Shown here: positions 28,821-57,994 of the stretch, piece by piece | Layout of the letters: every line of letters starts with the position of its first letter | Position numbering within the stretch: position 1 is the first letter of the stretch | NCBI RefSeq assembly: GCF_002161445.1 | Contig: NZ_NFHT01000002.1 | Span: 186,001 to 250,000 of the forward strand | Source: Alistipes sp. An66 | Lineage (GTDB): Bacteria; Bacteroidota; Bacteroidia; Bacteroidales; Rikenellaceae | DNA: 64,000 nucleotides | Reading direction: 5' to 3' | Notes under the pieces: generated by a model | Database searches by the model: none | What the model saw: the letters and a program-made list of their open reading frames with translations, nothing else | What the model was told of the DNA's origin: nothing | Position numbers and translations under genes: made by a program

Positions 28821-28828
28821 CAAAAATA
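28821..28828 (-). promoter_or_regulatory. -7 element for the U32/methyltransferase operon
   Basis: The minus strand reads TATTTTTG, a full consensus match. It places the transcript start near 28814, which decides for GTG 28803 as start codon. Confidence 0.55.
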
Positions 28829-28860
28829 CGAAACTATTCCGCCTCTACAACAAAACACCC

Positions 28861-29322
28861 TTATTGTTTATAAAGAATCACCTTATCCGTTGTTTTTGTT
28901 TTTCGGGTAATTCCTCCGTTCTCATCATATTGGGTGGTTGTTATCGTTCCGAATCGGATATTGTCCGAATCCGTGTAGGTATAATCAATTTCCTGCTTGT
29001 AATACAAATATATATCTCCGGATATACTCTTACTGTATACCAATTGTATGGAACCGATCAAACGCCCTGCATCGTCGTATTCATAATCTGTACGATTGGA
29101 TTCCAATCCATTTTCATCATACGAAACAATACTGGCCCATTTCTGACTGCCCCACGCACAGTTGCACGGCGTATCCGAATCATTTCCCGAAGATGGAACA
29201 TCACCGGTTGTAACATCATTTCCAGATTCGATCTTACTTTCGTTTCCACAGGCCTGGATGGCAAGGCTGATAACAGCGCCCAAAACAAAGGCAGCAAACA
29301 ACAAACTCAATTTTTTCAACAT
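28861..29322 (-). CDS. Small lipoprotein with a YD-repeat-like segment
   Basis: 153 residues. The signal sequence ends in a lipobox (SLAIQAC). The mature part is Ser/Asp-rich, then reads SIVSYDENGLESNRTDYEYDDAGRLIG and TTTQYDENGG, like the YD/Rhs-type repeat found in bacterial surface proteins; two or three short copies are visible. The function is unknown. It is A+T-richer than its neighbours. The promoter at 29594-29623 gives it a leader of about 265 bases that contains a structured conserved element (29377-29540). Confidence 0.75.
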   Translation of the reverse strand: MLKKLSLLFAAFVLGAVISLAIQACGNESKIESGNDVTTGDVPSSGNDSDTPCNCAWGSQKWASIVSYDENGLESNRTDYEYDDAGRLIGSIQLVYSKSISGDIYLYYKQEIDYTYTDSDNIRFGTITTTQYDENGGITRKTKTTDKVILYKQ

Positions 29323-29376
29323 AACGCTTCATTTATTTAAGTTAAACAATCTTTCCGTAAAATGGATCGTATGAAT

Positions 29377-29540
29377 GCAAAAAGCGTGGGACAACGCCTG
29401 ATTTGTTTTTGAGGTATCGCCAAACACCCTTACCCAAATAGACAAAGCCCACGCCGTCAGACGCGAGCATCAACCTATTCTCGGGTATTCTTCAATTTGG
29501 CGATTTTCAAAAACGAGAATAAAAGCCAACGCTTTTTATA
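29377..29540 (-). other. Structured conserved intergenic element in the lipoprotein leader
   Basis: The stretch holds three crossing inverted repeats: GCGTGGG (29384-29390) with CCCACGC (29448-29454), ATCGCCAA (29416-29423) with TTGGCGAT (29497-29504), and TATTCTCG (29476-29483) with CGAGAATA (29514-29521). AAAGC/GCTTT at 29524-29537 is a fourth small hairpin. It has no credible start codon, but in one minus-strand frame it reads as KALAFILVFENRQIEEYPRIG up to the last residue before a stop; I recall similar short translations from other gut Bacteroidales, unverified. It may be a dispersed RNA or mobile remnant. Confidence 0.45.
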
Positions 29541-29593
29541 TGTCAATCAAACACCGATTCTTTATACCATAGGCATGAATACGTTTCCTTTTT

Positions 29594-29623
29594 ACAAAGA
29601 TAGTGAAATTCATCGGACCGACA
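29594..29623 (-). promoter_or_regulatory. Promoter of the lipoprotein leader
   Basis: On the minus strand TTG (29623-29621), 19 bases, TATCTTTG (29601-29594). Confidence 0.6.
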
Positions 29624-29676
29624 ACCGCCGGAGAGTTTTTCCCCGATGAAAAAGATACACTTTCACGCATTTTTTG

Positions 29677-29684
29677 TAATTTTG
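29677..29684 (+). promoter_or_regulatory. -7 element of serS
   Basis: TAATTTTG, full consensus match, 38 bases before the serS start. The -33 region is weak. Confidence 0.5.
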
Positions 29685-29722
29685 TCGCTCGTAACGCGAA
29701 AACACAAAAAACTTCCGATACC

Positions 29723-30994
29723 ATGCTTACGATCAAGCAAATCCGCGACGACCGCGAGGCCGCCGTCCGCAAACTCGCCAAAAAGGGCGTCGACGCCGCA
29801 CCCGTCATCGACCGGATCCTCACGCTCGACGACCGCCGCAAGGCCATCCAGCTCGAACTCGACAACACGCTGGCCGCCCAGAACAAGGCCGCCAAGGAGA
29901 TCGGCGCCCTGATGGGTCAGGGACGCCGCGACGAGGCCGAGGAGCGCAAACGCTTCGTGGCGGACCTCAAGGAGAAGTCGACCCGCCTGCAAGCCGAGTC
30001 GAACGACGTACAGCAGGAGTTGCAGGCCGCACTCGTGACGCTGCCGAACTTCCCCGCCGAGATCGTCCCCGAAGGCAAGACGGCCGAGGACAACCTCGTC
30101 GTGAAACTCGTCGAAAGCTACACCGCGCTGCCCGAAAACCCGCTGCCCCACTGGGAGCTGGCCAGGAAGTACGACATCATCGACTTCGACCTCGGCGTGA
30201 AGCTCACCGGAGCCGGATTCCCCGTCTACAAGGGCAAGGGTGCCCGTCTGCAACGCGCGCTGATCAACTACTTCCTCGACTGCAACACCCGCGCCGGGTA
30301 TCTGGAAGTCGAGCCTCCGGTGATGGTCAACGAGGCGTCGGGATTCGGCACGGGACAGCTCCCCGACAAGGAGGGGCAGATGTACCACGCCACGGTCGAC
30401 AACTTCTACCTCGTGCCGACGGCCGAAGTCCCCGTGACGAACATCTACCGCGACGTGATCCTCGAAGAGAAGGATTTCCCCGTCAAGATGACCGCCTACA
30501 CCCCCTGCTTCCGCCGCGAAGCCGGCTCCTACGGCAAGGACGTGCGCGGCCTGAACCGCCTGCACCAGTTCGACAAGGTCGAGATCGTGCAGCTGTCGCT
30601 GCCCGAGGTGTCGTACGAGGCGCTCGACGGCATGGTGGCCCATGTCGAGGGAATCGTCAAGTCGCTCGGACTCCCCTACCGCATCCTGCGGCTCTGCGGC
30701 GGTGACATGTCCTTCACCTCGGCGCTGACCTACGACTTCGAGGTCTACTCCGAGGCACAGAAGCGCTGGTTGGAGGTCTCGTCGGTCTCGAACTTCGAGT
30801 CGTTCCAGGCCAACCGTCTGAAACTCCGCTACCGCGACGCCGAAAAGAAGACCCGCCTGGCCCACACGCTCAACGGTTCGTCGCTCGCCCTGCCCCGCAT
30901 CGTGGCGGCGCTGCTCGAAAACTTCCAGACCCCCGAAGGGATCCGCATCCCCGAGGTGCTGATTCCCTACACGGGTTTTGATATTATCAAATAA
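29723..30994 (+). CDS. serS: Serine--tRNA ligase
   Basis: 423 residues, standard bacterial length. It charges tRNA-Ser. The N-terminal coiled-coil arm (about residues 25-110) that grips the long variable arm of tRNA-Ser is present, rich in Lys/Glu/Ala. Class II motifs follow: GTGQLPDKEGQMYH, FRREAGSYGKDVRGLNRLHQFDKVE as motif 2 and NGSSLALPRIVAALLEN as motif 3. The frame extends 40 codons upstream, but ATG 29723 gives the family start MLTIKQIRDD and sits after the promoter. Confidence 0.97.
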   Translation: MLTIKQIRDDREAAVRKLAKKGVDAAPVIDRILTLDDRRKAIQLELDNTLAAQNKAAKEIGALMGQGRRDEAEERKRFVADLKEKSTRLQAESNDVQQELQAALVTLPNFPAEIVPEGKTAEDNLVVKLVESYTALPENPLPHWELARKYDIIDFDLGVKLTGAGFPVYKGKGARLQRALINYFLDCNTRAGYLEVEPPVMVNEASGFGTGQLPDKEGQMYHATVDNFYLVPTAEVPVTNIYRDVILEEKDFPVKMTAYTPCFRREAGSYGKDVRGLNRLHQFDKVEIVQLSLPEVSYEALDGMVAHVEGIVKSLGLPYRILRLCGGDMSFTSALTYDFEVYSEAQKRWLEVSSVSNFESFQANRLKLRYRDAEKKTRLAHTLNGSSLALPRIVAALLENFQTPEGIRIPEVLIPYTGFDIIK

Positions 30995-55838: not shown

Positions 55839-56312
55839 CTATTCGCGGCGGGACCGCCGGCAGGCATCGAGTCGGCGAAACCACTCCCCGGCATCGGGTT
55901 CGAGCGCCTCCCAGGACGGTGGATAGGAACGGTAGATGAAAGGCATCACGGCGTCGTTGAACCGCCGCGACAACCGCTCCCGCAGGGCTATGCACACCGC
56001 GAGACGCCCCACCGTCCGTCGGTCGCAGAAACGCACCATGCGGTCGAGCAGGCGCCCGGCCTCGTCGTCGAGCGAATCGAGCAGATCGAAAGTCCCGTCG
56101 CGCAGATAACCGGCATGCAGGGAACCGAAGCGTTCGGAACCGTGGGCCGCATAGGAGGAGAGCACTTCGTAAAGCACCTCGGATTGCAGGTCGGTCACGC
56201 GGCGGAATTCCCGTTCGGCCAAGTCGAATTGCAGCTGTCGGTCGCATCCCGTCGGGAGCAGCATCGTCAGAAGCACTCCCAGAAGAGTAAAGAGAAATTG
56301 CCGTTTTTCCAT
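55839..56312 (-). CDS. Hypothetical lipoprotein
   Basis: 157 residues. The signal MEKRQFLFTLLGVLLTMLLPTGC ends in a lipobox (LPTGC). The mature part is helical and acidic/basic mixed: DLAEREFRRVTDLQSEVLYEVLSSY, then LLDSLDDEAGRLLDRMVRFCDRRT. The ending is strongly basic. I do not recognise the family. The gene is preceded by a promoter, a structured leader and a terminator-like hairpin (56374-56402), so its expression may need read-through. Confidence 0.72.
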   Translation of the reverse strand: MEKRQFLFTLLGVLLTMLLPTGCDRQLQFDLAEREFRRVTDLQSEVLYEVLSSYAAHGSERFGSLHAGYLRDGTFDLLDSLDDEAGRLLDRMVRFCDRRTVGRLAVCIALRERLSRRFNDAVMPFIYRSYPPSWEALEPDAGEWFRRLDACRRSRRE

Positions 56313-56373
56313 AAAAAATGCACGGGTCAGTTATTTACCGGCTAACAAGGTAGACCAATACCCATGCGATCGA

Positions 56374-56511
56374 CAAATAAAAGCCCGCGCAAACGCGCGA
56401 GCATTACATTTATCGTTCCTTCGCAACTGAATTTTTGGTCTTTTTGTTAGCGAGAACAATAACGTAACGCTTACGTTAAACAACAATGTCATGCGGCGGA
56501 CGCACCCGCCG
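56374..56511 (-). ncRNA. Candidate small RNA or attenuated leader
   Basis: A full promoter (56518-56548) would start an RNA near 56511. It holds hairpins GGCGG/CCGCC and AACGTAA-GCG-TTACGTT, and ends in GCTCGCGC/GCGCGGGC (56402-56383) followed by TTTTATTTG, a proper terminator. The product is about 135 bases. The ATG of the next gene is 62 bases further, so this may be a separate RNA or a regulated leader. Any ORF in it crosses the terminator and is not convincing. Confidence 0.5.
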
Positions 56512-56517
56512 ACAAGA

Positions 56518-56548
56518 CAAAGATAGGAATTTTCGGGCAAAAATCAAA
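56518..56548 (-). promoter_or_regulatory. Promoter of the candidate small RNA
   Basis: On the minus strand TTTG (56548-56545), 19 bases, TATCTTTG (56525-56518); exact consensus. Confidence 0.75.
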
Positions 56549-56716: not shown

Positions 56717-57994
56717 ATGCCCAATATTCCCCTGGCCGAACGTCTCCGCCCCCGCTCCCTCGATGAATACATCGGGCAGGAGCATCTCGTGGGCCCGAAA
56801 GGCGTCTTCCGCAAATTCTTCGAAACGGGAAACGTCCCCTCGTTCATCCTCTGGGGGCCTCCGGGCGTCGGCAAGACCACCCTCGCCAGGATCGTCGCCT
56901 CGCAGCTCGACCGACCCTTCTTCACCCTCTCGGCCGTTACATCCGGAGTCAAGGAGGTCCGCGAAGTGATCGAATCGGCTCGAAAACAGCGCTTTTTCGA
57001 CCAAAAATCACCCTTCCTCTTCATCGACGAGATACACCGCTTCAACAAGTCCCAGCAGGACTCCCTGCTCGGGGCCGTCGAGCAGGGAATCGTCACGCTC
57101 ATCGGCGCCACAACCGAAAACCCCTCCTTCGAGGTGATCTCCCCGCTGTTGAGCCGCTGTCAGGTCTACATCCTCCGCGCCCTCGAAGACAAGGACCTCC
57201 AAACGCTCCTCGACCGCGCCCTGCACACCGACATCGAACTGCGTGAACGGGAGATCGAAGTGCGGGAAACCGCAGCGCTGTTCCGCTTCGCGGGTGGCGA
57301 CGCCCGGAAACTCCTCAACATCCTCGACATCATCATCGGAGCCACCGACGGAAAGGTCATCATCACCGACCAATACGTACAGGAGTGTCTTCAAGAAAAC
57401 ATCGTCCTCTACGACAAAAACGGCGAACAGCACTACGACGTCATCTCGGCCTTCATCAAGTCGGTGCGCGGCAGCGACCCCAACGCCGCCGTCTACTACC
57501 TCGCCCGCATGCTCGCCGGAGGCGAGGAGCCGAGGTTCATCGCCCGGCGGCTGGTGATCCTCGCCTCGGAGGACATCGGACTCGCGAACCCCAACGCCCT
57601 GCTGCTGGCAAACGCCTGTTTCGATACCGTCCACAAGATCGGCATGCCCGAAGCCCGCATCCCGCTGGCCGAGGCAACCATCTATCTGGCCACCTCGCCC
57701 AAGAGCAATTCGGCATACATGGCCATCGGAAAAGCACTCTCGCTCGTGGAGCACGACACGACGAACCGTCCCGTCCCGCTCCACCTGCGCAACGCCCCGA
57801 CCAAACTCATGAAACAGGCCGGATACGCCGAAGGATACAAGTACGCCCACGACTACGAGGGGCATTTCGCCGAAATGGAGTTCCTCCCCGAGTCGCTCTC
57901 GGGAACGAAATTCTACGAACCCGACACGCAGAACGCCGCCGAAGCCAAGATCGCCGAACGCATCGCCCGGCTCTGGAAGGACAAGTACAAATAG
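56717..57994 (+). CDS. rarA: Replication-associated recombination protein A (RarA/MgsA), AAA+ ATPase
   Basis: 425 residues. RarA acts at stalled replication forks as a clamp-loader-like tetramer. Walker A is GPPGVGKTTLARIVA near residue 48; Walker B and sensor parts are FLFIDEIHRFNKSQQD and TLIGATTENPSFE. The C-terminal part has SAFIKSVRGSDPNAAVYYLARM and ILASEDIGLANPNAL, both typical of the family, and NAPTKLMKQAGYAEGYKY. Start ATG 56717 gives MPNIPLAERLRPRSLDEYIGQ. Downstream is a 44-bp repeat before the phosphodiesterase gene. Confidence 0.96.
   Translation: MPNIPLAERLRPRSLDEYIGQEHLVGPKGVFRKFFETGNVPSFILWGPPGVGKTTLARIVASQLDRPFFTLSAVTSGVKEVREVIESARKQRFFDQKSPFLFIDEIHRFNKSQQDSLLGAVEQGIVTLIGATTENPSFEVISPLLSRCQVYILRALEDKDLQTLLDRALHTDIELREREIEVRETAALFRFAGGDARKLLNILDIIIGATDGKVIITDQYVQECLQENIVLYDKNGEQHYDVISAFIKSVRGSDPNAAVYYLARMLAGGEEPRFIARRLVILASEDIGLANPNALLLANACFDTVHKIGMPEARIPLAEATIYLATSPKSNSAYMAIGKALSLVEHDTTNRPVPLHLRNAPTKLMKQAGYAEGYKYAHDYEGHFAEMEFLPESLSGTKFYEPDTQNAAEAKIAERIARLWKDKYK

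Follow-up and report, generated by a model that had tools for sequence, protein, structure and literature searches.

The window analyzed here is a stretch of 64,000 nucleotides from Alistipes sp. An66 (contig NZ_NFHT01000002.1, positions 186,001 to 250,000), and between serS and the gene for a U32-type peptidase (region 28822-29724) it holds a promoter-leader-lipoprotein unit of about 820 bp. Read along the minus strand, this unit has a -7 promoter box, a GCCTATG motif with a minimal ORF, an element of about 160 nt that ends in CCCACGCTTTTT, and a lipoprotein-type gene whose product has no Pfam match. The element is a leader RNA and is one copy of a folded-RNA family that is so far without a name. 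If the in-frame ATG at 29574-29576 is used, the minimal ORF at this locus would read M-P-M-V-stop. The window carries a second copy of the leader, which is divergent from a rarA-like gene at 56717-57994. The features of both copies are listed in Table 1.

Table 1. Features of the two leader copies in the window
Feature	Position	Strand	Remarks
Inverted repeat GCGTGGG/CCCACGC	29384-29390/29448-29454		3:4 pseudoknot
Inverted repeat ATCGCCAAA/TTTGGCGAT	29416-29424/29496-29504		Kissing helix K
Inverted repeat ATTCTCG/CGAGAAT	pair 29476/29521		1:2 helix Q
-7 promoter box TATCTTTG, Bacteroidota type, of leader transcript	29595..29602	-	Direct sequence and TAnnTTTG enrichment
Minimal ORF ATG GTA TAA in GCCTATG motif	29562..29570	-	
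Leader RNA core	29380..29536	-	Covariance-model match, 120 bits
P0 5' strand AAAAAGCG	29530..29538	-	Partner CGCUUUUU at 29379-29386
Segment 1 (Q5, GGCUUUUAUUCUCG)	29514..29527	-	Pairs with segment 2
P1 5' strand GUUUUUGA	29507..29514	-	3' strand UCAAAAAC at 29405-29412
Loop L6 strand of kissing helix K (AUCGCCAAA)	29496..29504	-	
Loop L5 strand of kissing helix K (UUUGGCGAU)	29416..29424	-	Inside hairpin P5 (GGU/ACC)
Segment 2 (CGAGAAUAGG...GCUCGCGUC)	29460..29483	-	Partner is segment 1 (Q) or segment 3 (P3b and P4)
Segment 3 (GGCGUGGGCUUUGUCUAUUUG)	29435..29455	-	Partner is segment 2 (P4/P3b) or segment 4 (PK-long)
Segment 4, 3' tail CAAAUCAGGCGUUGUCCCACGC	29384..29405	-	Arm-tail pairing in MFE
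U-run directly after segment 4, terminator-like	29379..29383	-	
Downstream lipoprotein-type gene	28861..29322	-	153 aa, lipobox IQAC
Second leader RNA copy	56316..56474	-	75.9 bits
-7 box TATCTTTG of second copy	56518..56525	-	
Lipoprotein-type gene behind second copy	55839..56312	-	ATG 3 nt after U-run

The initial annotation had claimed that three inverted repeats cross each other at this locus, and all three were read directly from the sequence at the positions it had given. They are far beyond chance, as the homologous pairings are kept with compensatory changes in about 200 copies. Its claim of a pseudoknot or alternative folds also held, as there is support for alternative folds as well as for a pseudoknot formed by kissing loops. 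The same is true of the good promoter placed at 29594-29623, in which the -7 box lies, and of the leader of 265 bases, the distance to the ATG of the lipoprotein gene at 29322 being about 265 nt. The short minus-strand peptide that was remembered from other records is an accidental translation of the RNA (frame 0: ...GVGFVYLGKGVWRYLKNKSGVVPRF). The second window copy, the minimal ORF, and the mutual exclusivity of the helices had been missed, and neither the four-segment logic of a putative attenuator nor a multicopy regulon had been foreseen.

When the element was searched with BLASTN, homologues were found outside this locus, namely a second copy within the host genome and copies in 25 of 101 relatives. 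A DNA pattern search gave at least 118 matching stretches of named genomes, nearly all of them from Bacteroidales and from genera that include Alistipes, Prevotella, Bacteroides, Dysgonomonas, Tannerella, Odoribacter, and Symbiothrix; two of the pattern matches outside Bacteroidales, in Elusimicrobia and Tissierella, do not resemble the element. With a covariance model (R1) built from 65 copies, 18 places were matched in the host genome, the second window copy included, and 16 of these were at E < 3e-4, which gives a total of 16-18 copies. Matches to this model were present in all 40 searched genomes of the genus, at 1-25 per genome (median 6), in at least 71 of 295 sampled genomes of the class, which is about a quarter, and, at a stricter cut, in at least 32 of 296 genomes of the phylum, three of which are outside the class. 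The class and phylum counts are lower bounds because few candidates were scored per genome. A separate observation was made in Candidatus Symbiothrix sp. Hs463_bin62, where at least 15 copies (loci L039, L040, L064, L075, L084, L090, L095, L109, L113, L118, L121, L131, L140, L142, and L155) have near-identical flanks and are mostly followed, in place of a gene, by shared repeats and a very small ORF (MQNKS...). It is possible that these copies were amplified as a repeat.

Strong covariation was found among the homologues, and it shows a compact core that consists of P1, P3, and the hairpins P5 and P6 joined by kissing helix K of 7-9 bp. In the first alignment 30 pairs were predicted by RNAalifold, of which 23 had changes on both sides. 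After the kissing region had been brought into register, column pairs were ranked by APC-corrected G, and of the 14,028 pairs the top 18 all fell within P1, P3, and K, with P1 pairs at ranks 4, 5, 10, 13, 14, and 18 and K pairs at ranks 8-17. In the core of K, 87-95 of 95 sequences were paired at each of seven positions. Since the 7-9 pairs of K connect loop L6 to loop L5, this helix crosses hairpin P5, which was paired in 91-101 of 103 sequences. An independent count gave 730 cells with changes on both sides compared to 208 in shuffles, and 94.1% of the cells were paired compared to 36-50% with slid partners. The alternative set, made up of Q, PK, and inner P3, was 88.1% paired compared to 38-53% with slid partners; part of this signal comes from the inner P3 pairs, which are common to both states, and therefore it is mainly the swap tests described below that support Q and PK in their own right. 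The column-pair analysis gave no support for a basal extension of P1, and an extended P0 outside the core (GACATA/UAUGUC) was supported only weakly (z -3.6).

Four segments of the leader can pair in more than one way. There is complementarity between segment 1 (GCUUUUAUUCUUG) and segment 2 (CAAGAGUAAAG), between segment 3 (CGUGGGCUUUACU...AUUUG) and segment 2 taken together with the 5' arm of P4, and between segment 3 and segment 4 (CAAAUAAAGUUAxAGUCCCACG), after which the U-run follows. The pairings are thus 1:2 (Q), 2:3 (P3b and P4), and 3:4 (PK-long), and neighbouring pairings exclude each other. In the swap test, the duplex energies of true partners were compared to those of swapped partners in 172 copies with bulges allowed. 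Over all copies the z values were -14.7 for Q, -19.4 for P3b, -18.2 for P4, -24.6 for PK-long, and -12.6 for P0. Because these all-copy values are inflated by relatedness, the comparison was also made among the 17 paralogues from the host genome alone, which lessens the inflation but does not remove it. Within this genome z was -5.2 for Q and -4.9 for P0, and the cognate value was reached in none of 1000 permutations for any helix tested. The 34 copies from other orders of the class gave the same outcome as the test over all copies, with z for Q at -9.1. Negative-control pairs of segments that are not expected to pair gave no signal in the direction of co-variation; the row 'P4a x armL', which is listed among these controls, is not a control because armL contains the partner of P4. 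The Symbiothrix paralogues gave no co-evolution signal in the swap test because segments 1-4 hardly vary there and are too invariant to be tested. Helix Q, P3b/P4, and PK-long all co-evolve although adjacent pairings are exclusive, and these data show that the leader RNA is conserved, bistable, and multicopy, that it has undergone strong compensatory evolution, and that it lies between a promoter and a gene.

The 3' end of the leader is terminator-like. When the stretch with segments 3 and 4 was folded in isolation, the arm-tail pairing was in the MFE structure of 170 of the 172 copies, and a T-run of at least 5 was found in 152 of them. The 3:4 helix is GC-rich and is directly followed by the U-run. 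In one host copy (L199) the predicted energies of the 2-3 fold and the 3-4 fold were nearly equal (-44.5 and -43.6 kcal/mol, respectively). A fifth segment of 6 nt, in the interval between the U-run and the gene, is complementary to segment 4 in 66 of 170 copies compared to 19 when swapped. Three features required of an attenuator are present, namely exclusive antiterminator and terminator helices, a helix with a U-run, and a position between promoter and gene. Since there are two exclusive shapes and one of them resembles a transcription stop signal, the leader is probably an on/off switch; termination itself is inferred from the helix and the U-run without transcript data.

At the 5' end, TAnnTTTG was found within 140 nt upstream in 154 of 199 copies compared to 9.6% of random windows, and this box is mostly 50-85 nt before the element. 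The GCC[TA]ATG motif was not found in any of the 34 copies from other orders of the class and was present in 81 of the 165 other copies. The mini-ORF was therefore added in Bacteroidales and does not belong to the core switch. In all 69 non-redundant GCC[TA]ATG copies there is an in-frame stop after 0-4 codons, 12 of these being of the start-stop form, compared to 23.5 ± 3.8 expected by shuffling and to 14 and 24 in the other two frames. From the end of the mini-ORF to the closed RNA domain there are 18-113 nt, mostly 18-78 (113 once). Some copies have long spacers, with 64-78 nt between the mini-ORF stop and the RNA core. An additional GC-rich hairpin (GTGCCG...CGGCAC) is often found in such spacers, and the effective distance from mini-ORF to core may therefore be kept constant.

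When the genes after each copy were examined, it was found that the leader precedes same-strand genes at a median gap of 55 nt. By inspection, a same-strand ORF lies within 140 nt in 18 of 18 host copies, and where copies were first counted as having no ORF, it was mostly because the ORF ran off the fetched stretch or began further away. As judged by a crude signal classifier, 109 of 144 downstream proteins look exported or membrane-bound compared to 212 of 742 background ORFs, and a lipobox is present in 34% of them compared to 7% of the background. The downstream proteins fall into 104 sequence clusters, mostly of lipoprotein or secreted type; no common pathway was found among their genes and no metabolite or ligand was indicated by them. 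The leader has been kept across genera by DUF6567-like lipoproteins, a PEGA-like lipoprotein, and a small XRE-type protein, the last being a helix-turn-helix protein (RSVSWLAxxLxCDRxN motif) seen directly behind the leader at five loci in several genera. Host copies also precede a DNA-methyltransferase-like gene (L199:4317-4988) and a LemA family gene (L202:4558-5196), and thus the regulon is not made up only of lipoproteins. In one family of another order the next ORF is 230-580 nt from the copy (six loci), and it is conceivable that such copies act partly as free RNAs. An association with defence systems was rejected, as a PADLOC scan of 96 downstream proteins gave scattered single matches only, and so was an association with phages (two matches in 2.9 million viral contigs). 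As for the window locus, serS and the U32-type peptidase gene are direct divergent neighbours in about 22 congeners, with a gap of 80 nt in the two closest, and among the congeners inspected this junction holds the leader-lipoprotein unit only in the window genome. The unit has therefore been gained or lost as a whole, and no clear terminal repeats and no clean target duplication were seen at the junction.

A protein-coding element was rejected: any frame is open through the element in just 36 of 200 copies and the lengths of the copies are evenly spread modulo 3, and therefore the element is not coding. Together with the strong covariation this bears out the claim that the DNA is conserved for its structure and not its protein; the outcomes that would have refuted it, namely no matches elsewhere, no covariation, and intact coding frames, were examined and none was met. 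A search of Rfam 15 gave no family above the gathering threshold for the window or for 38 other loci, a permissive Rfam search of the element gave chance-level matches only, and no tested copy reached the gathering score of Flavo-1 (RF01705). In the literature searched on start-stop ORFs, Bacteroides leaders, and attenuators no description of this leader was found. The family is thus new in that it is neither in Rfam 15 nor described in the literature found, with the reservation that two papers on motifs of the human microbiome (PMC8040213, PMC6429828), which name no such motif in their text, hold thousands of unnamed candidates that might include it.

The reading we favor, with a probability of about 0.62, is that these are a Bacteroidota-wide family of cis-acting leader RNAs that act as conditional terminators (attenuators), termination being inferred from the sequence. 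In this view, when segments 1 and 2 are paired segment 3 would be free for segment 4, and the resulting intrinsic terminator would stop transcription before the gene. When the 1:2 pairing is prevented, 2:3 would form as an antiterminator and the gene would be transcribed. In this read-through state the U-run would be occupied by P0 and, in some copies, segment 4 by the downstream segment. The signal may be a ligand or protein that is bound by the kissing-loop core, or it may be the behaviour of ribosomes at the start-stop-like mini-ORF. What speaks against a terminator is that the loop of the 3:4 hairpin is long (about 30 nt, partly structured) and that the U-run is shared with P0. The helix could for these reasons act in the control of translation or in RNA stability and not in termination. 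Moreover, segment 1 overlaps P1 and is about 30-90 nt past the mini-ORF stop, so masking by a ribosome in the manner of trp is not obvious.

The alternative that survives best, though we consider it unlikely, is a translational switch or mRNA stabiliser in which the folds control access of ribosomes or attack by RNases. A ribosome on the mini-ORF near the 5' end would then be a stabiliser, or a donor for re-initiation past the folded domain, which is functionally like ribosome shunting. This is supported by the invariable 0-4 codons of the mini-ORF in all motif copies, before a closed domain, by the complement of the tail before the gene, which could sequester the initiation region, and by some genes that begin 3 nt past the U-run. 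Against it, the 3:4 helix ends exactly at the U-run in most copies, which a purely translational device does not need, and in the 34 copies of other orders the switch co-evolves even though none of them has the mini-ORF motif. Less probable still is a family of trans-acting small RNAs (like FopS or 6S) that end at the U-run and are before genes by chance. The leader does have its own promoter, a terminator-like end, many copies, and a product of about 200-260 nt, and for some copies the next gene is far away. However, nearly all copies have a close same-strand gene, downstream genes are strongly enriched for exported proteins, and recurring gene families retain the leader across genera. A mobile or MITE-like DNA repeat, or an attC-like site of single-stranded DNA recombination, with palindromes that serve DNA mobility, is likewise very unlikely, for although the element is dispersed and multicopy, the unit is missing at the serS/U32 junction of congeners, and the Symbiothrix copies have near-identical flanks, RNA is indicated by compensatory changes in a kissing loop and in helices that are exclusive and not nested, the orientation to promoter and gene is fixed, the junction has no clear terminal repeats or target duplication, and viral contigs gave almost no matches.

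Bacteroidota dominate the gut and many other habitats, and few of their RNA regulators are known. With up to 25 copies per genome before genes for lipoproteins and secreted proteins, the conditional terminator that we propose would control one of the largest RNA regulons known in the phylum, and this is directly testable. Helices that are exclusive and yet co-evolve within a single genome make this an unusually clear case of a bistable RNA from sequence alone. A bolder reading, which is no more than a possibility, is that horizontally gained envelope genes form a phylum-wide regulon gated by one switchable leader RNA, which would sense a second messenger or the state of ribosomes (initiation or termination at the start-stop minigene) and would arrive with new genes as a ready-made promoter-leader unit.

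When the leader is compared to known systems, likenesses and differences are found with each. Flavo-1 and the other Bacteroidetes motifs of Weinberg 2010 are computational, with several matches in 5' transcribed regions (PMC9723704, PMC2864571), and the leader is likewise a computationally found RNA motif in Bacteroidetes. FopS/GibS of Bacteroides thetaiotaomicron are trans-acting RNAs of about 65-70 nt with a single-stranded seed and one terminator hairpin (PMC11697453). The leader resembles them as a multicopy RNA family with the same promoter type, but it is about 160 nt, cis-positioned, and multiply folded, and identity with FopS was ruled out by size and fold. Cyclic-di-GMP riboswitches are multicopy and purine riboswitches have kissing-loop aptamers. 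The leader is similar to riboswitches in its compact kissing-loop junction, its 3' part that looks like an expression platform, and its many copies before surface-protein genes; unlike them, it has no known ligand and no sequence or model match to Rfam riboswitches, and its core helices vary freely in sequence. Attenuators of the trp type (E. coli trpL; Bacteroid-trp motif RF01692) pair 1:2, 2:3, and 3:4, and by analogy the leader has the same three pairings, a U-run after 3:4, and a short ORF upstream. It differs in that its mini-ORF has only 0-4 sense codons, which specify no constant amino acid, and does not occur outside Bacteroidales, that a large kissing-loop core lies between segments 1 and 4, and that it precedes many unrelated genes and not a biosynthetic operon, again without an Rfam match. 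A trp-like leader-peptide attenuator was rejected as no ORF with regulatory codons overlaps segment 1; the leader does not belong to this class, given that its mini-ORF is too short and too distant and is absent from copies outside Bacteroidales. Finally, minimal ORFs are known from the lambda bar minigenes, the AUG-stop elements of eukaryotic leaders, and the short ORF before a stem in caulimoviruses, and by analogy the mini-ORF of the leader is also an AUG near the 5' end with a stop at once or after a few codons. Unlike those ORFs, it is conserved across an order within a multicopy RNA leader, and as a rare bacterial case of a conserved ORF of 0-4 codons, start-stop forms included, it makes the function of minimal ORFs testable.
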